Positions 4,599 to 51,551 of a stretch of DNA of 64,000 nucleotides are shown here, one piece after another. Numbering within the stretch: position 1 is the stretch's first letter; every line of letters begins with the position of its first letter. The notes beneath the pieces were generated by a model. It was not told where the DNA came from, made no database searches, and saw only the letters and a list, made by a program, of their open reading frames with translations. The DNA lies in assembly GCF_000308515.1 (NCBI RefSeq), contig NZ_BAFV01000124.1, positions 62,001 to 126,000 on the forward strand, read 5' to 3'. This stretch comes from Nocardia carnea NBRC 14403. Lineage in GTDB: Bacteria; Actinomycetota; Actinomycetes; Mycobacteriales; Mycobacteriaceae. Made by a program: the position numbers and the translations under genes.

Positions 4599-6020
4599 GT
4601 GGTCAATTACGGCTTCTTCGAAGAATGGGATCCGGCGGGCGGTGTGCTCACCACCTGGACCGCGACCCCGCACTCGCGCGAAGCGGCGCGACGGGCACCG
4701 GCGCATCCCACACCGCCGTCGTATCAGCAGGAGGTCTACCTCCGCGCCGCATACCGTGAGGACGGACAGGGGTTCCGCGCATCGCGGCTGTGCATGATCG
4801 CCTTCGATCTGCCGGGCGTACCCGACCATCGCGCCATGACCCGCACCGTGAATGCTTTCTTGCGCCGCCACGATACGTTCACCTGCCACTTCGTTCCGCG
4901 GGTGGATGGATCGTTCGAGCGGCACCGGATCGATCCGCGGACCATCGATTTCCGGCCCGTCCGGCACGGCGCGACTGCCGGCAGCGCCGCGATCCGGTCG
5001 CATGTCCAGCGCGAAACCCCCGGCCCACTCGAATGGGACTGCTTCACCTTCGGGATCAGCGAGCGCACCGACTCTTTCACGGTGTACGCGGCCATCGACC
5101 ATCTGCACACCGACGGTGTCGCGCAGGCTCTCACCTTCGTCGACCTGCTGACGATCTACTCCGCGGAATGCGCCGGCCGTCCCGCCGCGCTACCGGAGAT
5201 CACCGGTCATATCGCCTACTGCGACCGCGACCGGCGGGTGAACCGGCAACTCGGCCCGCATTCGCCGGGCGTCCGGGAATGGCGCAACATCCTGTACCGG
5301 CACGGCGGTGAAATACCGGCGTTCCCACTGGATACCGGAGTCGTCCGGGGCGGCTACACCAGGGGCGCCCAGGTGACCGTGACCCTGCTCCCGGAAGCAC
5401 AGGCGGTCGAATTCGACGAACTGTGCGCGAATCAGGGCGGGCGTTTCCTCGCCGGGATTCTCGCCGCGGCGGCCTGTGTGGAACGTGAACTCGTGGGCCG
5501 CCCCCGATATCTCGGACTGACTCCGGTCAACACCCGGCACGAGGTGGGGGAGGCCGCTTCGGTCGGTTGGTACACCAACCTCGTTCCCGTCTCGTTTCCG
5601 GTCGGAGCGGCCGATACCTTCGCTTCGCTGGTGGGTTCCGCGCAGCGGGCCATGGACCAGGCCAGGCAGCTGTCGGATATTTCGCTGCACCGGGTGCTCG
5701 AGCTCGCCGAGCACGATCCGAATATCGGTGCCGCGCCGGGTTGCTCGACGCCGATGCTGTCGTATCTGGATATCCGCCGGATTCCGGGCGTCGCCATGTT
5801 CACCGCGGTCAACGGTGGGATCTACGCCAACCCGATCAGTCCGCGCGAGGTCTACATCTGGGTGAACCGGTTCGCGGACGCCACCCGCATCACCCTGCTG
5901 TTCCCGGACAACGGCCGCGCCCGCGAATCGGTCGACCGGTATCTGTCGGCGCTTCGCCGGGTGGTGAATACCGTCTGTTCCACCGGAGATTACGGCCTGG
6001 CCGTGGAAGCGGTGCCGTGA
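4599..6020 (+). CDS. PapA-like condensation-domain acyltransferase
   Basis: 473 residues, a single condensation (CoA-dependent acyltransferase) fold without carrier or adenylation domains. The catalytic motif at residues 167-173 is DHLHTDG, matching HHxxxDG with the second His (168) and the D172-G173 pair kept and the first His replaced by Asp. The later latch region GWYTNLVPVSF is also present. Mycobacterial PapA enzymes of this type move fatty acyl groups from a polyketide carrier or CoA to trehalose or another hydroxyl. The start is GTG at 4599 with GAGG 6 bp upstream. It is the first gene of a tightly coupled set: its stop overlaps the GTG of the MFS gene. No polyketide synthase is visible nearby. 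Confidence 0.8.
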   Translation: MVNYGFFEEWDPAGGVLTTWTATPHSREAARRAPAHPTPPSYQQEVYLRAAYREDGQGFRASRLCMIAFDLPGVPDHRAMTRTVNAFLRRHDTFTCHFVPRVDGSFERHRIDPRTIDFRPVRHGATAGSAAIRSHVQRETPGPLEWDCFTFGISERTDSFTVYAAIDHLHTDGVAQALTFVDLLTIYSAECAGRPAALPEITGHIAYCDRDRRVNRQLGPHSPGVREWRNILYRHGGEIPAFPLDTGVVRGGYTRGAQVTVTLLPEAQAVEFDELCANQGGRFLAGILAAAACVERELVGRPRYLGLTPVNTRHEVGEAASVGWYTNLVPVSFPVGAADTFASLVGSAQRAMDQARQLSDISLHRVLELAEHDPNIGAAPGCSTPMLSYLDIRRIPGVAMFTAVNGGIYANPISPREVYIWVNRFADATRITLLFPDNGRARESVDRYLSALRRVVNTVCSTGDYGLAVEAVP

Positions 6021-7426
6021 TCGCCCCGACCGCATCCGGCGCTGCCACCGGCTCCGAGCGCGTACTCCGGGGGCCGTTGATCGTCTGCCTGTTCGCGGTG
6101 GCGGTGCAGGTGCTGGATATGACGATGCTGGCGGCGGCGCTACCGGCCATCGGCCGCGCACTGCACTTACCTGCGGCGCAGCAGGTGCTCGTGGTTACCG
6201 GATACAGCCTGGTCTTCGGCTGTGCACTCATGGCCGCGGCCCATTTCGGCGACCGGTTCGGCCGCAGACGGATCTATCTGACCGGTATGACGGGATATGC
6301 CCTCTGTGCAGGCTGGTGCGCCGCTGCCGGCGGGGGAGCGGAACTGGTGACGGCGCGCTGTCTGCAGGGACTGTGCGGTGCGCTGGTGGCGGCGCAGACG
6401 CTGGCCGTCATCACGACCTCGTTCGGGCCGCGGCACCGGACCACCGCGTTCGCCGCCCACAGCGCGACCGCCGCGGCCGTTGCCGTCGCCGGCCCCGTCC
6501 TGGGCGGGGTCCTCGTCGACGCGGATCTCGGAAATACGGGGTGGCGTTCGGTCTTCCTGGCCGAGATGGTGTGTGCACTGGTCGCGGTCGCCGTGGCCGT
6601 ACGGTTCCTGCCCCGGCACCGGCCGGCGCCGGACCGGCGGTCCGATCCGGTCGGGGCCGGACTCGGGATCGCTGTGGTCGCGGTGCTGTTATCGCTCGTA
6701 CTGCCGCTGGGGGGCCCGCGATCCGTGCCCGAACTGGCGTTCGGTGGGGTATGCGTGGCGGTGGCGCTGCCGGTGCTCGTGCACCGTGGCCGCGGAACCG
6801 GCCGCGCCCAGGTGTTCCCGGTCGCGCTGTTCGCCCGGCGGGAATTCGCGCTGGGCGCGGTGGCAGTGGTGGGTTTTTCGGCGATATTCGCCGGGCTTCC
6901 GCTGACCGTGTCGAATACCGCTCAGCTGGGTGTGGGTTTCAGCGCACAGCAGGCCGGAATGCTGCTGCTGCCGAGTGCCCTCGGTGCGGTGGCCGGCGCA
7001 CTCTCTGCACCGATGCTGATCCACCGGATCGGCACGGTGGCCCTGCTTGCGGGCACGGTGCTCTTCGGGCTCGCCACGGTATCGGTTGCCGTGCTGATCG
7101 ATCCGGGGTCCGGACGCATCGACGTACCCGGTCTGATCGTGCCGCTGGCAGTAGCGGGGATCGGCCTCGGCTGGTTCGCGGCACCGTTACCCGGCCTGTT
7201 GATGTCCGGGATCGATCCGGACGACACCGGTGCGGCGTCGGGATCGGTACCCACCCTGCAGCAACTGGGTGGTGCGCTGGGACCGGTGATCCTGCTCGCC
7301 CGGCCGGAAGAATCGGCCGCGGCCTCCGATCACCTTGCCGCACTGGTCGACTCCTTGTTGATCGTTGCCGGGATGGCCGCTGCTCTGGCGATGGTGATCC
7401 TCGCTCTTCCGAGGGCGCGGAGATGA
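6017..7426 (+). CDS. MFS transporter, 14-TM drug/lipid exporter type
   Basis: 469 residues, strongly hydrophobic throughout. The motif A region reads GDRFGRRRIY between helices 2 and 3. The first helix carries LDMTMLAAALPAIGRAL, like motif D1 of the DHA2 multidrug group. The start is taken as GTG at 6017, which overlaps the TGA of the PapA-like gene (GTGA). The last base pairs overlap the ATG of the glycosyltransferase (ATGA), so the three are translationally coupled. In this setting it may export the acylated product, in the role MmpL proteins play for other PapA products. That role is inference. Confidence 0.85.
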   Translation: MIAPTASGAATGSERVLRGPLIVCLFAVAVQVLDMTMLAAALPAIGRALHLPAAQQVLVVTGYSLVFGCALMAAAHFGDRFGRRRIYLTGMTGYALCAGWCAAAGGGAELVTARCLQGLCGALVAAQTLAVITTSFGPRHRTTAFAAHSATAAAVAVAGPVLGGVLVDADLGNTGWRSVFLAEMVCALVAVAVAVRFLPRHRPAPDRRSDPVGAGLGIAVVAVLLSLVLPLGGPRSVPELAFGGVCVAVALPVLVHRGRGTGRAQVFPVALFARREFALGAVAVVGFSAIFAGLPLTVSNTAQLGVGFSAQQAGMLLLPSALGAVAGALSAPMLIHRIGTVALLAGTVLFGLATVSVAVLIDPGSGRIDVPGLIVPLAVAGIGLGWFAAPLPGLLMSGIDPDDTGAASGSVPTLQQLGGALGPVILLARPEESAAASDHLAALVDSLLIVAGMAAALAMVILALPRARR

Positions 7427-42528: not shown

Positions 42529-43251
42529 TCAGTGCAGGAGTGTGCCCAGCTGCCGGGCGGCTTCGGTGACGGCGGTGGCGAGCGCGCGCTCGTCGTCGAT
42601 CTCGAATACCGAGATTCCGATCGAGGACAGCGGTGCGCCGCGGCGGCGGGGGATCAGGGCCGAGAGGCCGTACACCGTGGAGACGACCTCGCCGCGCGTG
42701 ACCGCGTAGCCCCGGTGGCGGGCCGCCTCCACCTCCGGGCGTTCGCCGGGGGCCGGTGGCAGGGCGGCCAGCATGGCCAATCCGGCCGATCCCCGGTCGA
42801 TGGCGTGTACCTGGCCCGGCCGGAACGCCACATGGACCTCGGCATTGCGTGGTTCCACGACTACCAGCGCGCGCACCTCGGACGCGCTCTCGCGGAGTAC
42901 GAGGTGGACGGTGGCGCGCGTACGTTCGGCGAGGTCCTCCATCACCGGCCGGGCCACGGTCCGTAGATCCTGTTCCACCGGCTCGGCCAGCGTGACCAGG
43001 CCCGTGCCGAGCGTGACCCGTTTGGTGTCGTCGCGGCGGCACAGGCGGTGGGCCTCGAGGGTGCGGACCAGCCGATGCGCGACAGTCCGGTGCACGCCGA
43101 CCGCGTCGGCTAGATCGCTGGTCGACAGCCCGTGCGGGTGACGGGAGAGCACCTCGAGGATCGCCAATCCGTGGTGCAGCGTTTTCGACATCCCGGAGTC
43201 GAGCTCGACCGCGGGCGTGTGTTCGCCGTCCGGTGCCGTGCTGTGGTTCAT
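42529..43251 (-). CDS. IclR-family regulator of the homogentisate operon
   Basis: 240 residues. Winged helix: LAILEVLSRHPHGLSTSDLA, VGVHRTVAHRLVRTLEAHRL. Ligand domain: VHLVLRESASEVRALVVVEP, AIDRGSAGLAMLAALP and TVYGLSALIPRRRGAPLSSI. ATG 43251 has AAGGAC 6 bp upstream; GTG 43284 is in frame. It is divergent from a nine-gene catabolic operon, and the gap holds a strong palindrome with a third half-site, so it very probably controls that operon. Confidence 0.9.
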   Translation of the reverse strand: MNHSTAPDGEHTPAVELDSGMSKTLHHGLAILEVLSRHPHGLSTSDLADAVGVHRTVAHRLVRTLEAHRLCRRDDTKRVTLGTGLVTLAEPVEQDLRTVARPVMEDLAERTRATVHLVLRESASEVRALVVVEPRNAEVHVAFRPGQVHAIDRGSAGLAMLAALPPAPGERPEVEAARHRGYAVTRGEVVSTVYGLSALIPRRRGAPLSSIGISVFEIDDERALATAVTEAARQLGTLLH

Positions 43252-43299
43252 CTCGTCCTTCTTGACTTCTGTGAGGGCGGACACTTAGCCTTCATGCAT

Positions 43300-43326
43300 A
43301 TCGCACAGTGTGTGCGATTATCGCAC
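43300..43326. promoter_or_regulatory. Probable IclR operator: ATCGCACA-gtg-TGTGCGAT plus half-site
   Basis: A perfect inverted repeat with 8-bp arms and a 3-bp centre (43300-43318) is followed at once by a further ATCGCAC half-site (43320-43326). It lies 49 bp from the IclR start and 55 bp from the SnoaL-like start, so it can control both directions. Confidence 0.7.
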
Positions 43327-43380
43327 GGTCGCAGGGTGGGGGCAAGCCGGCCGATCAGCGATCACCCGAGGAGAATGTCG

Positions 43381-43827
43381 ATGAACACGGTGTCGCCCGG
43401 AGGTCTGCCCGATCCGGCCACGGTGGCCGCGGTCCACCAGTTGTACGGGTTCCAGAGCCACTCCATAGACAACGGCCGCGCCGCCGACTGGGCGGCCACG
43501 TTCACCATGGCCGGGGAATTCCATTCGCCGAGCTATCCCGAACCGGTGGTGGGCCGGGCTGCGCTCACCGACTTCGCCCGCGGCTTCTACGAGGCGGCGC
43601 AGGCGGCGGACGAGATCCAGCGGCACGTGGTCACGAATATCGCGATCCGGCAGCTCGACGACGCGACGCTCGAGGCCGGTGCCTATCTGCAGATAGTCGC
43701 GACCCCTCGCGGCGGCCGCTCGCGGCTGGTGCGGATGACCACCTTCGAGGACCGCCTCCAGCGCACCGACGGCGGCTGGGCGATCGCCCGTCGCCGCGTT
43801 TCGCGCGACGACACACCTCCGGCATAA
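43381..43827 (+). CDS. SnoaL-like (NTF2-fold) protein
   Basis: 148 residues. NTF2-like fold suggested by AAVHQLYGFQSHSIDNGRAA, DWAATFTMAGEFHSP, GRAALTDFARGFYEA, RHVVTNIAIRQLD and RRVSRDD. Relatives act as polyketide cyclases, dehydratases, steroid isomerases or the small subunit of ring-hydroxylating systems. ATG 43381 is chosen because GAGGAG lies 7 bp upstream, whereas ATG 43375 is too close to it. First gene of the operon; in this context an isomerase or dehydratase is plausible. Confidence 0.8.
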   Translation: MNTVSPGGLPDPATVAAVHQLYGFQSHSIDNGRAADWAATFTMAGEFHSPSYPEPVVGRAALTDFARGFYEAAQAADEIQRHVVTNIAIRQLDDATLEAGAYLQIVATPRGGRSRLVRMTTFEDRLQRTDGGWAIARRRVSRDDTPPA

Positions 43828-43877
43828 CGCCGGCCACCTCGACTTTCTCCCATTTTCATCTCAGGAAGGACCAGGAA

Positions 43878-44714
43878 ATGAGCACCACCACGGACCGGGA
43901 CAATCCGGGCCGCACCGATGCGACCCCGATGACCGCGCAATACCCGGAAATGGCGGGCAAGGTCGCTGTTGTCACCGGTGCGGCCCAGGGGATGGGTGCG
44001 GTCTTCGCGGCGGGGCTGGCCGCGCGCGGAGTATCGGTGGTGGCCGCGGATATCAACGAGGACCAGGTTGTCACCACCGCGGACCGGATCAACGCCGAAC
44101 TCGCCGGGAACGGGGCGGACGTACCGGCGGGCCGGATCGTCGGTATGCGGGCCGATGTCACCGCGCCCGCCGACCACGAAGAACTCGCCCGGCGGGCAAT
44201 CGCCGAATTCGAGCGGATCGACTTCTGGATCAACAACGCCGGTATCTTCCCGTTCGCGCCGGCCGAGGATATCTCGCCCGAGCAGATCGGCGCGACCCTG
44301 CGGGTGAACGTCGAGGGCGTGCTGTACGGCGCGCAGGCCGCGGCGCGGCATATGCGACCCGGCGGCGCGATCGTGAACATGTCGTCGGTGTCCGCGCTGC
44401 GGGTGCGGAAGGGCCGGGGCGCCTACTGCACCTCCAAGGCCGCAGTCGCGCATATGACCGAATCACTGGCAGTCGAATTCGGTGACAAAGGGATCCGGGT
44501 GAATTCCATCGCCCCCGGCTACATCGATACCGCCATGACCCGCTGGGTCCAGGACGATCCCGCCGCGCTCGCGCACGCCCTCGAGGTGGTCCCGCTACAC
44601 CGGCTCGGTTCGCCGGAGGAGGTGTTCGGGCCGCTGCTGTTCCTGCTGTCCGACAGCGCCCGCTACATCACCGGCCACAGCATCGCCGTCGACGGCGGGT
44701 CGCGCCATGTCTGA
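43878..44714 (+). CDS. Short-chain dehydrogenase/reductase (1 of operon)
   Basis: 278 residues, classical SDR: TGAAQGMG cofactor motif, VVAADINE (Asp after strand 2, so NAD is likely), NNAG, catalytic MSSVSALRVRKGRGAYCTSK, and the C-terminal GHSIAVDGGSR. ATG 43878 has AGGA 5 bp upstream. Its stop overlaps the next SDR by 8 bp. Probably oxidises an alcohol of the ring substrate. Confidence 0.9.
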   Translation: MSTTTDRDNPGRTDATPMTAQYPEMAGKVAVVTGAAQGMGAVFAAGLAARGVSVVAADINEDQVVTTADRINAELAGNGADVPAGRIVGMRADVTAPADHEELARRAIAEFERIDFWINNAGIFPFAPAEDISPEQIGATLRVNVEGVLYGAQAAARHMRPGGAIVNMSSVSALRVRKGRGAYCTSKAAVAHMTESLAVEFGDKGIRVNSIAPGYIDTAMTRWVQDDPAALAHALEVVPLHRLGSPEEVFGPLLFLLSDSARYITGHSIAVDGGSRHV

Positions 44715-45489
44715 CCGCCCGGACTATCCCGGAGTCGTCCTGGTGACCGGTGCCGCGGCCGGTATGGGCGCGGCCCATGCGCGGGCGCTCGGCGCACTCG
44801 GCACCCATGTCTGTGCCGCGGATATCACCGACACCACCGAACTGGTCGCGGAGATCACCGCGGCCGGTGGTTCGGCCAGCGCGCATCTGCTCGATGTCGC
44901 CGACCGATCGGCCTGGGACCGGGTCGTCGACGAGATTCGTACGCAACGTGGGGAACTCGGCGGCCTGGTCAACAATGCCGGTATCTCGCGGCGGCTGGAA
45001 TTCACCGACACCCCGGACGAGATCTGGGAGAAAACGCTGCGGATCAACCTGTCCGGCCCCTTCTACGGGATGCAGGCCGTGGCGCCGCTCATGCGTGATT
45101 CCGGCGGCGGATCCATCGTGAACATCTCCTCGATCACCGGGCAGATCGGCTACTTCTCCCCGGCGTACTCGGCCAGCAAATGGGGGCTGACCGGGCTGTC
45201 GAAATCGGCGGCGGGCGGCCTGGCGAAATGGGGTATCCGGGTCAACTCGGTCCATCCGGGTCTGGTCGGGACCGCCCTGGTCACCGGTTCGGGCGGGTTC
45301 GTGGAATCGTCGCTGCGGTCCATTCCGATGGGGCGGATGGGCGCGCCCGAGGAGATCACCGACGCCGTACTGCATCTGCTGTCGAACCGGTCGAGCTATA
45401 TGACCGGCAGCGAGGTCACCGTCGACGGCGGACTGGTGTCCAACGGCCTGTACCACCGCATCGTCGCCGATACCGAGGGGAGCCTGTAA
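44707..45489 (+). CDS. Short-chain dehydrogenase/reductase (2 of operon)
   Basis: 260 residues, classical SDR: TGAAAGMG, CAADITD (NAD-type Asp), NNAG, catalytic NISSITGQIGYFSPAYSASK, and the end GSEVTVDGGL. The start overlaps the preceding SDR, and its TAA shares its last base with the ATG of the flavoprotein (TAATG). Two different SDRs side by side suggest oxidation at two positions of the substrate. Confidence 0.9.
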   Translation: MSDRPDYPGVVLVTGAAAGMGAAHARALGALGTHVCAADITDTTELVAEITAAGGSASAHLLDVADRSAWDRVVDEIRTQRGELGGLVNNAGISRRLEFTDTPDEIWEKTLRINLSGPFYGMQAVAPLMRDSGGGSIVNISSITGQIGYFSPAYSASKWGLTGLSKSAAGGLAKWGIRVNSVHPGLVGTALVTGSGGFVESSLRSIPMGRMGAPEEITDAVLHLLSNRSSYMTGSEVTVDGGLVSNGLYHRIVADTEGSL

Positions 45490-46928
45490 TGGATGACGAA
45501 TTCGATGTCATCGTCATCGGCGGCGGTGGGGCCGGCCTGGCGGCCGCGGTCTCCGCGGCCGAAGACGGTGCCTCGGTGCTGCTGTTCGAATCCGAACGGG
45601 AACTCGGCGGCTCCACCCAGCTGTCCGCGGGCCTGTTCACCGCGGCGGGAACCAGTGTGCAGCGGGCCCTCGGGATCGAGGATTCGCCGGACAAGTTCTT
45701 CCAGCACTACATGGACCTCAACCAGTGGGTGTTGCGCCCGGGGCTGATCCACGCCTTCTGCGAGAATGCCGGACCGACACTCGAATGGCTCATCGGCCTC
45801 GGACTCGAGGTTCCGGCGGCCGTTTCCGGTAATGCACACCAGCCGGGCCTGACCCGCGCGGGAGTGGAGGACGTGTGGCGCGGGCACGTACCGAAGGACC
45901 AGGGCTACGGCCTCGTCCAGGTCCTGGCCGGGGCCGCCCGTGCGCACAGTGTCGAGGTCGTGCTGGGTACCCGGGTGGAGAAACTGCTGGTCCAGCAAGG
46001 GCGTGTGGCGGGAGTCGTCGCCGACGGGATCGACATGCAGGCGAAAGCTGTCGTCGTCGCCTCCGGTGGTTTCGCCCGGGATCCCGAGTTCCTCGACCGC
46101 TATTTCCCGGACGTGCGCGAGGCGGGCGAATCCTTGTTCGTGGTGGCCGCACCGGGCAGCCGGGGCGACCACCTGCGCTTCGGGGAGAACATCGGTGCGG
46201 CACTGACCGGCCACGGCTGGGGGCTGCTCATGCCCACCGTGTACTTCCAGCGGCAGCACCACTGGCAGTCCGGGTTCCCACCCGCCTCGCGAATCCATGT
46301 GAACCCGCAGGGCCGGCGTTTCATGGACGAGGACGCGTCTTATGCCGTGTCGACCGGAATCCTGGACCAGCACGGCGGCTACGGCTGGATGATCTTCGAC
46401 GAGAAGGCCCGGACCGGACTTGCCCCCGGATACACCGACTGGACTGCCGAACGGGTGGCCGAGGAGGTCGCGGCCGGACGTACGGTGCGGGCCGGCAGCT
46501 GGGACGAGCTCGCGGCAGCCATCGGAGTCCCGGCCGCTGCCCTGCGCACGAGTATCGATCGGTGGAACGCCGAGGTGCCCGCGGGCCAGGACACCGAATT
46601 CCGCCGGCACGTTTCTCTGGCCGCGAAAGGTGTGACCGAGCCGCTGGACCCGATCGAAACCGGCCCCTTCTACGCGGCCAGGATCCTGCCCGCGGAGCTG
46701 GTCTGCACCCACACCGGCCTCGAGATCGACGCACGTGCCGCCGTACTCGATACCACCGGAGCGCCGGTGGCAGGACTGTTCGCCGCCGGTGAGGCGGGCG
46801 GCGGGGTCCTCGGACAGCGCTACGTCGGCGGCGGCAACGCTGTCGCCAACGCGCTCACCATGGGCCGGATCGCCGGCCGCAGCGCGGCGCTCGCGTCGCG
46901 CCCCCTTTCGAACGCACAAGGACGATGA
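45489..46928 (+). CDS. Fumarate-reductase/KstD-type flavoprotein
   Basis: 479 residues. The FAD fold is DVIVIGGGGAGLAAAVSAAE, then ELGGSTQLSAG. The mid part has SRIHVNPQGRRFMDED, and the end is GLFAAGEAGGGVLGQRYVGG and GNAVANALTMGRIAGR. This is the FAD_binding_2 family (fumarate reductase, 3-ketosteroid delta1-dehydrogenase, urocanate reductase). Members move hydride across C-C bonds next to a carbonyl. Between two SDRs, a SnoaL-like protein and homogentisate genes, a ring desaturase leading to an aromatic product fits, but that is inference. Confidence 0.85.
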   Translation: MDDEFDVIVIGGGGAGLAAAVSAAEDGASVLLFESERELGGSTQLSAGLFTAAGTSVQRALGIEDSPDKFFQHYMDLNQWVLRPGLIHAFCENAGPTLEWLIGLGLEVPAAVSGNAHQPGLTRAGVEDVWRGHVPKDQGYGLVQVLAGAARAHSVEVVLGTRVEKLLVQQGRVAGVVADGIDMQAKAVVVASGGFARDPEFLDRYFPDVREAGESLFVVAAPGSRGDHLRFGENIGAALTGHGWGLLMPTVYFQRQHHWQSGFPPASRIHVNPQGRRFMDEDASYAVSTGILDQHGGYGWMIFDEKARTGLAPGYTDWTAERVAEEVAAGRTVRAGSWDELAAAIGVPAAALRTSIDRWNAEVPAGQDTEFRRHVSLAAKGVTEPLDPIETGPFYAARILPAELVCTHTGLEIDARAAVLDTTGAPVAGLFAAGEAGGGVLGQRYVGGGNAVANALTMGRIAGRSAALASRPLSNAQGR

Positions 46929-46929
46929 C

Positions 46930-48270
46930 ATGTTGGGAAACGAGCTGATGCCCGAAGCAGCGCACCGCTCCGAATCGGCCGCCGGCACCGGCCCGGCCAA
47001 GGCGCAGTCGCCGGTGAAGGTGGTCCGCGCGGCGGTCGTCGGCACCGTCGTCGAATACTACGACTTCGGCATCTACGGCTATATGGCGACGGTGATCGCC
47101 TCGCTGTTCTTCGTCTCGGAGAACGATACGGCCGCGATGCTGGGAACCTTCGCCGCCTTTGCGGTCGCGTTCTTCCTGCGGATCCCCGGCGGTATCTTCT
47201 TCGGCCATATCGGTGATCGCTACGGCCGCAAGAGCGCGCTCTCGTGGACCATCCTGCTGATGGTGATCGCCACCGTGGTCATGGGCCTGCTACCCACCTA
47301 TGTCACGCTCGGCGTCTGGGCCACGGCCATCCTTGTGCTGGCCCGGTGTGTGCAGGGTTTCGCCGCGGGCGGAGAACTCGGTGGCGCCAACGCCTTCGTC
47401 TCCGAATCGGCGCCGGCGCGCTGGCGGGCGACGCAGACCTCGATGGTGAACTCGGGCACCTACCTCGGCTCGCTCGTGGCCTCGCTGGTGGCGCTGGGCC
47501 TGACCTCGTTCTTCGACGAAGAAACCATCCTGTCCTGGGCCTGGCGTATCCCGTTCCTGCTCAGTGTGGTGATCGGTGTCGTCGGCATCTGGATCCGCAA
47601 TCATATGGAGGACACCCCGCAGTTCGAGAAGCTCTCCGAGAAGGGCGAGACGAAGAAGCTGCCGATCATGGAGTTGCTGAGCACCTCCGGCGGCGCGGTC
47701 GTGAAAATCATCTTTCTCGGTGCCCTGATCACCGGTGGCTACTACATCGCCTCGGTGTACGCCGCCACCTATCTGCAGACCTCCGGCGGGCATTCCTCGA
47801 CGATGGCGTTCCTGTCGACCTCGCTCGCACTGGTACTCGGTGTCATCACCTTGCCGATCGCCGGCTATCTCGCCGACCGCTACGGCCGCAAACCGGTGTT
47901 GTTCGGCGGTAGCGCCGCCGCCGCGATCCTCGGCGTCCCCATGTTCATGCTGATGTCCGGGTCCGGGGCATGGCAGGCAGTGGTCGGGCAGTCGGTGCTG
48001 TTCATCTGCGTCTCGGTCGTCAACGGCGCCTCGTATGTGACCTACGTGGAGATGCTCAAGGCCTCGGTGCGCTACAGCGGTCTGGCCCTGGGCAACAACA
48101 CCACCAATATGCTGCTCGGCGGCACGGCGCCGTTCATCGCGACCTACCTCATCGACCTCACCGGCAATTCGCTGGCGCCCGCCGCATACTTCGTGTTCTG
48201 CGCGCTCCTCACGCTGGTGACGGTCTTCTTCATCAAGGAAACCAAGGGCATCGCCCTGCGGGTGGACTGA
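46930..48270 (+). CDS. MHS-family MFS metabolite:H+ symporter
   Basis: 446 residues, twelve membrane segments. Family marks: GTVVEYYDFGIYGYMATVIA at helix 1, GHIGDRYGRKSALSWTILLM (motif A), GFAAGGELGGANAFVSE, and GYLADRYGRKPVLFGG in the second half. It belongs with ShiA, KgtP and ProP, importers of organic acids and zwitterions. It begins 2 bp after the flavoprotein stop and precedes hmgA, so it is the likely importer of the operon's substrate. Confidence 0.88.
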   Translation: MLGNELMPEAAHRSESAAGTGPAKAQSPVKVVRAAVVGTVVEYYDFGIYGYMATVIASLFFVSENDTAAMLGTFAAFAVAFFLRIPGGIFFGHIGDRYGRKSALSWTILLMVIATVVMGLLPTYVTLGVWATAILVLARCVQGFAAGGELGGANAFVSESAPARWRATQTSMVNSGTYLGSLVASLVALGLTSFFDEETILSWAWRIPFLLSVVIGVVGIWIRNHMEDTPQFEKLSEKGETKKLPIMELLSTSGGAVVKIIFLGALITGGYYIASVYAATYLQTSGGHSSTMAFLSTSLALVLGVITLPIAGYLADRYGRKPVLFGGSAAAAILGVPMFMLMSGSGAWQAVVGQSVLFICVSVVNGASYVTYVEMLKASVRYSGLALGNNTTNMLLGGTAPFIATYLIDLTGNSLAPAAYFVFCALLTLVTVFFIKETKGIALRVD

Positions 48271-48316: not shown

Positions 48317-49513
48317 ATGGCGTATTACCGCCGGCTCGGCGATGTTCCGCCGAAACGTCACACCCAGCACCGCGACGACAGCGGCCGGCTGTACTACGAA
48401 GAGCTGATGGGCGAGGAGGGCTTTTCCTCGGATTCGTCGCTGCTCTATCACCGCGGTATACCGTCCGCGATCTCCGGATCGACCGTCTGGGAGCTCCCGG
48501 ACCAGGCCACGGAACCGAATCATCCGCTGCGGCCGCGGCATCTGAAACTGCACGAGCTGTTCCCGCAGGAGAGCTGGTCGCAGACCGATATCGTGACCGG
48601 ACGCCGGCTGCTGCTGGGCAATGCCGATGTGCGGATCTCCTATGTGGTCGCGCAGCAGACCTCGCCGCTGTACCGCAACGCTCTCGGCGACGAGGTCGTC
48701 TACGTGGAATCCGGTGCGGCGCGGGTCGAAACGGTCTTCGGAGCGCTGGAGGCCCGGCCCGGCGACTACGTGGTGATCCCGACGTCCACGACCCATCGCT
48801 GGATTCCCCACGGCGACGAACCGGTGCGTGCGTACGCGATCGAATCGAGCAGCCATATCGCGCCGCCCAAACGCTATCTCTCGCGGTACGGGCAGCTCCT
48901 GGAGAACGCGCCGTACTGCGAACGCGATCTGCACGGGCCGTCGGAGGTCCTGCTCGCCGACGGCACGGATATCGAGGTGCTGGTCAAACACCGCACCTCC
49001 CGCGGGATCGTCGGCACCCGCATGGTGTACCCGCGGCACCCGTTCGATGTGGTCGGCTGGGACGGTTGCCTGTACCCGTACACGTTCGATATCGAGGATT
49101 TCGAACCCATCACGGGTCGCGTGCACCAGCCTCCGCCGGTGCACCAAACCTTCGAAGGCAACGGGTTCGTGGTGTGCAATTTCGTTCCCCGGAAGGTCGA
49201 TTACCATCCGCTGGCCGTTCCGGTGCCCTACTACCACTCGAATGTCGACTCCGACGAGGTGATGTTCTATTGCGGCGGGAACTACGAGGCGCGCAAGGGA
49301 TCCGGGATCGGCCTCGGGTCGGTGTCGGTCCATCCCGGCGGCCACGCCCACGGTCCGCAACCGGGCGCTATGGAACGCTCCCTGGGGGTCGAGTCGGTCG
49401 AGGAGACCGCGGTCATGGTCGACACCTTCGCGCCGCTCGAACTGGGAGAAGGCGCGCTGGCCTGTGAGGATCCGGACTATGCCTGGTCGTGGCTGGGGGA
49501 GGCGGGCGAATGA
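48317..49513 (+). CDS. hmgA: Homogentisate 1,2-dioxygenase
   Basis: 398 residues, the shorter actinobacterial form. The C-terminal cupin iron site is visible: YYHSNVDSDEVMFYCGG (His and Glu ligands) and SVHPGGHAHGPQPG (second His). HPFDVVGWDGCLYPYTFDIE and GFVVCNFVPRKVDY are also characteristic. It opens homogentisate to maleylacetoacetate with O2. Its stop overlaps the next ATG (ATGA). GAGGAGG lies upstream of the start. Confidence 0.95.
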   Translation: MAYYRRLGDVPPKRHTQHRDDSGRLYYEELMGEEGFSSDSSLLYHRGIPSAISGSTVWELPDQATEPNHPLRPRHLKLHELFPQESWSQTDIVTGRRLLLGNADVRISYVVAQQTSPLYRNALGDEVVYVESGAARVETVFGALEARPGDYVVIPTSTTHRWIPHGDEPVRAYAIESSSHIAPPKRYLSRYGQLLENAPYCERDLHGPSEVLLADGTDIEVLVKHRTSRGIVGTRMVYPRHPFDVVGWDGCLYPYTFDIEDFEPITGRVHQPPPVHQTFEGNGFVVCNFVPRKVDYHPLAVPVPYYHSNVDSDEVMFYCGGNYEARKGSGIGLGSVSVHPGGHAHGPQPGAMERSLGVESVEETAVMVDTFAPLELGEGALACEDPDYAWSWLGEAGE

Positions 49514-50373
49514 TCCCCGCCCTGCTGCGCGGCCTGTGCGACGACGCGGCGCTGTTCCCACCCGGTAACGCACCACTGCCCGCCGCGCTCACCGCGCACG
49601 CCCGCTACCGCGACAGTGCCTTCGCGGCATTGGTCGGTCCGTTCATTTTCCCGATTCCCCGCCTCGCCGAACTCGCCGCGTCGCAACCCGCGCCGATCGA
49701 GGTGGTCCTCACCGCGCCCGAGGGCCCCGGGGCGGTGGCCATCGCTCTGGACCGGACCGCCGAGATCGCCGGGGTCACCGTCGTGGGCGTCGAAATCGCC
49801 GCCCGGCCAGGACAATCCGCGGAAGAGTTCTTCGCGGAGCTACCGGCGGCAAGACCGGGATGGCCGGAACTCGCCGTCTCGGTCGAGGTTCCCCGGGACA
49901 GCCGCCGGGCGCAATTCTTCGACCGGCTCGCGGACTCGCCGTATGTGGCGAAATTCCGCACCGGAGGGGTGGTCGCCGAGGCCTACCCGGACACACCGGA
50001 ACTCGCCGCCGCGATCCGGTCGGCCGTCACCGCCGGCACTCCGTTCAAAGCGACCGCGGGCCTGCACCACGCGGTCCGCAATACCGATCCCGCCACCGGA
50101 TTCGATCAGCACGGGTTCCTCAACCTGCTGCTCGCGACGCACCTGGCGCTGGCCGGCGCCGATACCGCCGAACTCGCCGACATACTGGCCGACCGTGACG
50201 GCCGTGCGATCGCCCAGCAGCTGGCCGCGCTCACCGACGAGGAGACCGCGGCCGTGCGAGCGGCGTTCCGCTCCTTCGGCACCTGCAGTATCGGCGACCC
50301 GTTGACCGAGCTGGTGGATCTGCATCTGCTTCCCGCCGCCCTGCGGCCCGTCCCCGAAAGTTCAGCACCATGA
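49510..50373 (+). CDS. Uncharacterised protein between hmgA and fahA
   Basis: 287 residues, soluble. A conserved-looking core reads FRTGGVVAEAYPDTPELAAA, then GTPFKATAGLHHAVR with adjacent Lys and paired His, then GFDQHGFLNLLLATHLAL. The N-terminus has LCDDAALFPPGNAPL. The alternating strand/helix pattern could be a TIM-barrel-like fold. It overlaps hmgA and fahA by 4 bp each, so it is made with both. The step between those enzymes, maleylacetoacetate isomerisation, has no recognised enzyme here. A role in that step or elsewhere in the pathway is a hypothesis. Confidence 0.75.
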   Translation: MIPALLRGLCDDAALFPPGNAPLPAALTAHARYRDSAFAALVGPFIFPIPRLAELAASQPAPIEVVLTAPEGPGAVAIALDRTAEIAGVTVVGVEIAARPGQSAEEFFAELPAARPGWPELAVSVEVPRDSRRAQFFDRLADSPYVAKFRTGGVVAEAYPDTPELAAAIRSAVTAGTPFKATAGLHHAVRNTDPATGFDQHGFLNLLLATHLALAGADTAELADILADRDGRAIAQQLAALTDEETAAVRAAFRSFGTCSIGDPLTELVDLHLLPAALRPVPESSAP

Positions 50374-51551
50374 CCGTCATCGACATACCCGCCGATTCCC
50401 TGTTCGGGATCGGCAATCTGCCCTACGGTTCCTTCTCTACCCCGGGCACCGCGCCCCGGATCGGTGTCCGGGTGGCGGACAAGGTCGTCGACCTCGCGCT
50501 TGCGCTGGGTGACGACGTGTTCGCCCGGCCGGTCCTCAACGATTTCATGGCCCGCGGCCCGCGGGAATGGTCGCGGGTCCGGGCACGGATCACCGACCTC
50601 GTCCGCGGCGAGATCGACACGGACGCCGTGCACGATATCGCGGACGTGACGATGCACCTGCCCATCGCCGTCGCCGACTATGTCGACTTCTACGCCTCCG
50701 AATACCACGCGACCAATCTTGGCCGGCTGTTCCGCCCGGATTCGGCGCCGCTCATGCCGAACTGGAAACATCTTCCGGTCGGCTACCACGGCCGCGCCGG
50801 CACCGTGATCCCGTCCGGCACCGATATCGTCCGCCCGTGCGGGCAGCGCAAAGCCCCCACCGAACAGGCGCCTTCCTTCGGTCCGTCGCGACGACTCGAT
50901 ATCGAGGCCGAACTGGGCTTCGTCGTCGGAGTACCGTCCGCACCCGGCACGGTGATCACACCGGACGATTTCGCCGATCACGTCTTCGGTGCCGTGGTGG
51001 TGAACGACTGGTCGGCGCGTGATATCCAAGCGTGGGAGTACGTCCCGCTGGGCCCGTTCCTCGGCAAGAGCTTCGCGACCTCGATCTCACCGTGGGTGGT
51101 GCCACTGGCCGCGCTCGGGGCGGCCCGGGTCGACACCCCGGTACAGGACCCGGAGCCGCTGCCCTACCTGCGCGGCACCGAGAAATGGGGCCTCGATATC
51201 GATCTCAGCGTCGAATGGAACGGGCAGATCGTCTCCCGCCCGCCGTACGCCGAGATGTACTGGTCGCCCGCGCAGATGCTGGCCCACACCACCGTCAACG
51301 GTGCGACAGCGCGTACCGGTGATCTCTTCGCGTCCGGGACGATCTCCGGCCCCGAGCCGGACCAGCGCGGTGCATTCATCGAGCTCACCTGGGGCGGTGC
51401 GGAACCCGTCGAGGTGGCCGGCGAGACCCGGACCTTCCTCCAGGACGGCGACGAGGTCGCCATTGCCGCCACCGCACCCGGACCCGAGGGCTCACGGATC
51501 GGATTCGGGGAGGTCCGGGCCCGGATCCTGCCCGCCACACAGGCGGGCTGA
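50370..51551 (+). CDS. fahA: Fumarylacetoacetase
   Basis: 393 residues. The N-terminal SH3-like domain ([13 protein letters not shown]) is followed by the FAH fold. Metal and catalytic residues are visible in [47 protein letters not shown] (Glu pair), [20 protein letters not shown] and [16 protein letters not shown]. It hydrolyses fumarylacetoacetate to fumarate and acetoacetate. The ATG overlaps the stop of the preceding gene. Confidence 0.95.

Follow-up and report, generated by a model that had tools for sequence, protein, structure and literature searches.

The window analysed here, a stretch of 64,000 nucleotides from Nocardia carnea NBRC 14403 (contig NZ_BAFV01000124.1, positions 62,001 to 126,000), contains on its forward strand a compact run of three overlapping genes. 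The first, hmgA (48317..49513), encodes a homogentisate 1,2-dioxygenase in a divergent 398-residue form, and the third, fahA (50370..51551), a fumarylacetoacetase. Between them lies an open frame for a protein of 287 aa (49510..50373), called X here, which is predicted to fold as a TIM barrel and is our candidate for the maleylacetoacetate isomerase; an alternative GTG start upstream, at 49489, would give 294 aa. With the end of HmgA at 49513 and the start of FahA at 50370, X shares four bases with each (hmgA/X junction, GAATGATC; X/fahA junction, CACCATGACC), so that coordinates and junction sequences confirm the double 4-bp overlap read by an earlier note on this DNA. The identities that the same note had given to the neighbours of X hold against Pfam and NCBIfam profiles: HmgA matches PF20510 (1.7e-8) and PF04209 (5.9e-6) above the Pfam cut-offs and reaches 66 bits on TIGR01015, whose cut-off is 511, and FahA scores 434 bits on TIGR01266 (cut-off 375.3). 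FahA also matches PF01557, the fumarylacetoacetate hydrolase superfamily, in Pfam, a domain absent from X. This divergent type of HmgA accompanies X.

Upstream of hmgA, the window encodes an IclR-type regulator (42532-43284, reverse strand), followed on the forward strand by two short-chain dehydrogenases (43308-44711 and 44707-45489), a FAD_binding_2 dehydrogenase (45486-46928) and an MFS transporter (46798-48270). These genes may constitute a route feeding the pathway, in which an alicyclic compound is aromatised to homogentisate. Part of the set recurs near HmgA-X-FahA elsewhere, for example at L031, L037, L055-L057, L067, L068 and L070.

X had been described as an unknown protein, and profile searches agree: it gave one chance-level match in Pfam (E 0.098), no family match in NCBIfam or PHROGs and no solved chain by sequence, and the profile retrieved a single chance-level match among solved chains (E 0.34). 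Two sets of its relatives, of 32 and 67 sequences, yielded scattered chance-level matches only when scanned against the families. At E <= 10, X matched neither the profiles of DeoC or related aldolases nor those of the mycothiol-dependent maleylpyruvate isomerases (Pfam, NCBIfam), nor the MaiA model TIGR01262 (NCBIfam). The last model has no match in the whole genome, which bears out the remark that no recognised maleylacetoacetate isomerase is present. The 27 pattern matches obtained in viral contigs included no relative, and searches of the open-licence literature, a body that leaves most subscription journals outside, turned up no paper naming or testing X.

The motifs AKFRTGG and FKATAGLHH of X had pointed to the two lysine motifs of deoxyribose-phosphate aldolase (DeoC, DERA) ahead of any search by fold. 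The structure predicted by AlphaFold2 with 67 aligned relatives is an eight-stranded TIM barrel (mean pLDDT 95.9, pTM 0.93). A Foldseek comparison of this model with the PDB gave no match at E <= 0.001, and VIA-align 2 placed 1n7k first (Z 14.1, rmsd 3.5, 206 aligned residues). Its first 42 rows (Z 14.1-12.0) comprise DERA entries, aldolases under other titles, and designs built on the DERA scaffold, such as KE70, and the next match, at 11.8, is a pyruvate kinase. By these scores, DERA is the nearest solved fold to the modelled X, with a margin that is modest but consistent. DeoC/DERA (TIGR00126) shares with the predicted X the eight-stranded alpha/beta barrel and two lysines, the one on strand 6 (which in DERA is the Schiff-base lysine) and the one on strand 7: in the model of the genome's own DeoC, the motif lysines K145 and K175 occupy these strands, and in strand order they correspond to K148 and K180 of X. 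A comparison of the two profiles gave a probability of 1.2% (E 0.045), and the sole stretch that it aligned pairs K180 with the strand-7 lysine. In contrast to DeoC, X exceeds the length of the DeoC model by about 80 residues, carries C259, has another set of conserved acids, and belongs to another pathway. We thus regard X as similar to DeoC in predicted fold and lysine placement, and as a candidate at most for membership of that family.

Conservation was counted over 114 aligned X sequences, across which the core GTPFKATAGLHH, previously picked out as conserved-looking, is indeed maintained. P18, E126, R150, K180 and G184 are present in all 114 sequences, and E95, K148, T182, R190, H201 and N205 in 113; H186 is found in 112, H187 in 98, and C259 in 112 (the exceptions being loci L052 and L096). 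Near the N-terminus, the motif DDAALFPP (codons 11-18, 49540..49563) contains D11, conserved in 112/114 with two gaps, F16 and P17, each in 112/114, and the invariant P18. E95 (49792..49794) is assigned to strand 4 and E126 (49885..49887) to the end of strand 5; AKFRTGG (codons 147-153, 49948..49968) bears K148 and R150 on strand 6, and FKATAGLHH (codons 179-187, 50044..50070) bears K180 on strand 7. C259 (50284..50286), the proposed built-in nucleophile, would lie just past strand 8. By the strand limits of the model, E95, E126, K148, R150, K180 and C259 are all on or beside barrel strands.

The linkage seen in Nocardia is widely conserved. Loci bearing X were collected from plasmids (9), genomes (22), contigs (80) and Priestia (2), 113 in all, of which two are near-duplicates, and fahA lies directly downstream of X on the same strand in 105 of them, or in 103 of 111 once X proteins at least 97% identical are merged; 80 of those 105 loci show the 4-bp overlap. 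In L047 and L124, fahA follows at 193 and 537 bases, respectively, and at six loci there is no fahA in the fetched stretch, with FahA present elsewhere for five of those genomes. hmgA is directly upstream of X on the same strand in 85/113 loci and divergent within 300 bases in 8/113. The arrangement of X and FahA is beyond chance. A plasmid operon of Priestia carries hppD, X, fahA, an aminotransferase annotated hisC, hmgA and an amino acid permease, with every step of tyrosine breakdown annotated save the isomerase. The proteobacterial operon of Pontibrevibacter has the order hmgA-maiA-fahA, and X therefore occupies the slot of the known isomerase.

Seven of the 11 genomes searched through loci (G303, G307 and G309-G313) hold two copies of X, and in five of these seven (G303, G309, G311, G312 and G313) one copy is by FahA and the other by HmgA; several of the second-copy matches span one stop codon. 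Other layouts were also observed. X stands alone, away from FahA and HmgA, in L097, L101, L104 and L112, from Streptomyces and Kitasatospora with FahA elsewhere in the genome; in G305, HmgA and FahA abut and X is on a separate contig. On the Streptomyces plasmids L024 and L025, X-fahA occurs with no hmgA in the stretch, and a protein annotated with a maleylpyruvate isomerase N-terminal domain is encoded less than 4 kb from X.

At the level of genomes, tblastn gave solid-score matches to X in 15 of the 61 family genomes (19 when four weak partial matches are counted) and in 10 of 246 sampled genomes of the phylum Actinomycetota, and full-length FahA in 21/61 and 26/246 genomes of the same sets. 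These share four genomes and comprise 303 distinct Actinomycetota. FahA is present in 45 of the 303, a count of matches above about 290 bits that includes four genomes below the curated cut-off (G042, G138, G262 and G283); X occurs in 24 of these 45 and at a solid score in none of the remaining 258. The same 24 came back when the 45 were searched with a profile. HmgA of the type found in the window accompanies 21 of the 24 X-bearing genomes and 13 of the 21 FahA-bearing ones without X, at an E <= 1e-30 that distant HmgA could escape. The weak partial matches to X (G010, G017, G041 and G043; E 4e-5 to 8e-4) were discarded as chance, and the two of these four genomes represented as L053 and L054 have no HmgA or FahA match nearby.

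A broader scan of the species-genome collection matched at least 592 stretches, at least 568 of them encoding relatives, and the best 80 all come, by name, from Actinomycetota. X is also found in 24 plasmid records, from Streptomyces, Pseudonocardia, Rhodococcus, Tsukamurella, Nonomuraea, the cyanobacterium Kovacikia and, in six cases, Priestia, and all 24 accessions recur among the FahA matches. Altogether, FahA was found for all the examined X-bearing genomes or loci but one. On a FahA tree of 78 rows (20 fetched loci without X plus 58 of 103 X-bearing rows), the presence of X needs nine changes, against a mean of 18 after shuffling, with none of 500 shuffles as low. As reconstructed on this tree, the presence of X is clustered, yet it appears to have been gained or lost many times.

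Two X sequences depart from the conserved pattern. In L096 (Rhodococcus sp. H36-A4, G304; X at 5001-5789), the genome has no detectable FahA or window-type HmgA, and 7 of the 32 columns conserved at 93% or more are altered, the mean over the 114 sequences being 0.37; the five nearest relatives of this protein (58-66% identity) have none of the 32 altered. L096 X is likely a relic, with the pattern expected when constraint is lost after loss of the pathway. L052 X (5977-6903) also has 7 of the 32 near-invariant columns altered, K148, H186 and C259 among them, with HmgA and FahA adjoining. Such change beside a retained HmgA and FahA counts against the reading of decay and against that of an isomerase; this divergent protein is possibly inactive or altered in function.

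Six genomes of the family sample have adjoining HmgA and FahA and no X, the two matches lying 18-50 bases apart. L140, whose HmgA stop codon overlaps the start of FahA, comes from a genome in which no X was found, and yet the FahA proteins of L140 and the X-bearing L067 share 94.7% identity. X is therefore not universally required, as relatives keep HmgA-FahA without it. The cut-off of MaiA model TIGR01262 was reached in none of the 45 FahA-bearing genomes, which gave three weak matches, and 21 of the 45 have neither X nor MaiA. Such genomes can thus achieve the step in another way, be it through a mycothiol-dependent enzyme, the thiol itself, another protein, or a FahA that accepts the cis isomer. 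Regions were fetched for 20 of the 21 genomes, leaving out G208, and the gene caller left FahA unplaced in 4 of the 20. Among 19 neighbour proteins inspected by eye at 10 of the 20 loci, no isomerase was recognised beside FahA. An unusual evolution of FahA, reflecting a takeover of maleylacetoacetate, was considered for these genomes and set aside as a general explanation after a mixed result: for the ten X-less loci having both genes, FahA of L138 and L152 is more divergent than that of X-bearing pairs at a similar HmgA distance, and FahA of L137 and L140 is less so.

A role of X in the homogentisate pathway is strongly supported by the linkage in three phyla, the co-occurrence with FahA and the decay of L096 X, and we regard it as nearly certain. 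The earlier note had offered X as a new isomerase or a helper of the pathway; the pathway role stood on the three lines just named, and of the two functions the isomerase fits best, with a chemistry that we infer. We consider it probable that X is the missing maleylacetoacetate isomerase, one that would need no thiol cofactor, of a homogentisate pathway operating without glutathione; our confidence is somewhat lowered by a published rival label for that step, discussed below. It would be a new protein family for a known reaction. Mycolic-acid actinobacteria are not known to contain glutathione.

Maleylacetoacetate is a 1,3-diketone in which one of the ketones is conjugated to a cis double bond. 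In MaiA, the thiol of glutathione acts as a reversible nucleophile. In the proposed scheme, HmgA would yield the cis product, maleylacetoacetate, X would convert it to fumarylacetoacetate, and FahA would hydrolyse the latter to fumarate and acetoacetate. A barrel lysine of X, K148 or K180, would form an imine or enaminone with the ketone adjoining the double bond, or would polarise that ketone; a nucleophile, most likely the near-invariant C259, would add to the double bond, the C2-C3 bond would rotate, and departure of the nucleophile would leave the trans isomer. C259 would thus stand in for the glutathione thiol of MaiA, and a path through the lysine only would be the main alternative to this cysteine chemistry. 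We know of iminium activation of unsaturated substrates by DERA only as an engineered reaction. As described in the relevant passages of PMC9400869, Lys-167 is the Schiff-base residue of DERA, and in an evolved variant an iminium ion mediates the addition of a nucleophile to an unsaturated substrate. A more specific and clearly more tentative idea is that X founds a family of cis-trans isomerases on a DERA-like barrel, in which a lysine iminium or enaminone is combined with a built-in cysteine replacing glutathione. The homogentisate pathway could then run alike in bacteria with mycothiol, bacillithiol or other thiols, and X would be the missing isomerase for part of the Gram-positive bacteria.

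Although the breakdown of tyrosine and phenylalanine is a textbook pathway, many Gram-positive bacteria have no gene agreed upon for the isomerase step. Bacillus anthracis has an operon of hppD, fahA and hmgA; in the passages of PMC4457819 that deal with it, no isomerase gene could be identified and the fate of maleylacetoacetate is said to require more work. X offers a named, clonable candidate with predicted catalytic residues, which makes the question directly testable. If the proposal is true, a glutathione-free isomerase would become available for engineering, and nature would provide an example of lysine-barrel chemistry serving cis-trans isomerisation.

MaiA and X share the slot between hmgA and fahA, as in Pontibrevibacter, and would share the reaction. 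Unlike MaiA, a zeta-class glutathione transferase with the fold of that superfamily, X is a predicted TIM barrel without a match to TIGR01262. A MaiA query against the plasmid collection matched 231 records, and the 60 among these that were listed are all Pseudomonadota by name, none of them an X record.

That X acts otherwise on the intermediates, by hydrolysis or cleavage of maleylacetoacetate, tautomerisation of fumarylacetoacetate or clearance of succinylacetone and other side products through aldolase-type lysine chemistry, seems unlikely to us, although the two lysines of the aldolase-like barrel are well suited to making or breaking C-C bonds of a diketone and a maleylacetoacetate hydrolase has been reported for some Bacillus species, as cited in PMC4457819. 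A second hydrolase would be redundant in view of the presence of FahA in all but one X-bearing case, and X sits in the place of maiA.

Less probable again is a helper role without catalysis, in which X would stabilise or activate FahA or HmgA. The model for such a protein is HmgX of Aspergillus fumigatus, likewise an uncharacterised protein of a homogentisate cluster needed for one step and proposed to serve HppD, according to the portion of PMC3203155 devoted to it; compared by description, HmgX is fungal, acts at HppD and is paired with hppD, whereas X pairs with FahA and HmgA. The translational overlap of X and FahA in 80/105 loci and the two-copy genomes that pair X with each enzyme agree with a helper. 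Against it, the invariant K180, E126 and R150 and the near-invariant C259, on or beside barrel strands, look catalytic, X is unlinked to both enzymes in L097, L101, L104 and L112, and a FahA 94.7% identical occurs without X.

We give little credit to the possibility that another protein is the isomerase and X is secondary, the step being served, in the manner of the gentisate pathway, by an isomerase that depends on mycothiol, or else by mycothiol itself. The mycothiol-dependent maleylpyruvate isomerase, which has a DinB-like fold, performs a cis-trans isomerisation after ring cleavage in glutathione-free bacteria, as proposed for X; X differs in having no match to its family models. Actinomycetota, Bacillota and cyanobacteria use different thiols, and such an explanation leaves the tie between X and FahA in Actinomycetota, Bacillota and a cyanobacterium unaccounted for. 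The 21 FahA-bearing genomes without X and MaiA speak for it, as do the maleylpyruvate isomerase N-terminal domain proteins of the two Streptomyces plasmids, the use of the mycothiol-dependent enzyme for gentisate in Rhodococcus (described in part of PMC3937715) and a family member of S. albidoflavus among the genes plotted for tyrosine metabolism in PMC11012174.

Least probable as the isomerase, in our view, is a protein resembling enoyl-CoA hydratase/isomerase to which the name Mai was given in Rhodococcus opacus R7 and BCP1, a label that, in the sections of PMC4591350 concerned, appears to be a sequence-based prediction. For R7, this 2015 paper lists hmgA (AII08874), fahA (AII08876) and mai (AII08877, 'Enoyl-CoA hydratase-isomerase'), and its account of these genes passes over AII08875; going by the numbering, AII08875 should lie between hmgA and fahA and is expected to be X. 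A gene of this kind, named by eye, is also located downstream of fahA in the X-less L140. By tblastn, the L140 protein has counterparts in 14 of the 113 X loci, six of them at 65% identity or more (of which L031 and L059 are the same genome), in one of the 20 X-less loci, L140 itself, and nowhere in the window, a much looser association than X shows with FahA.
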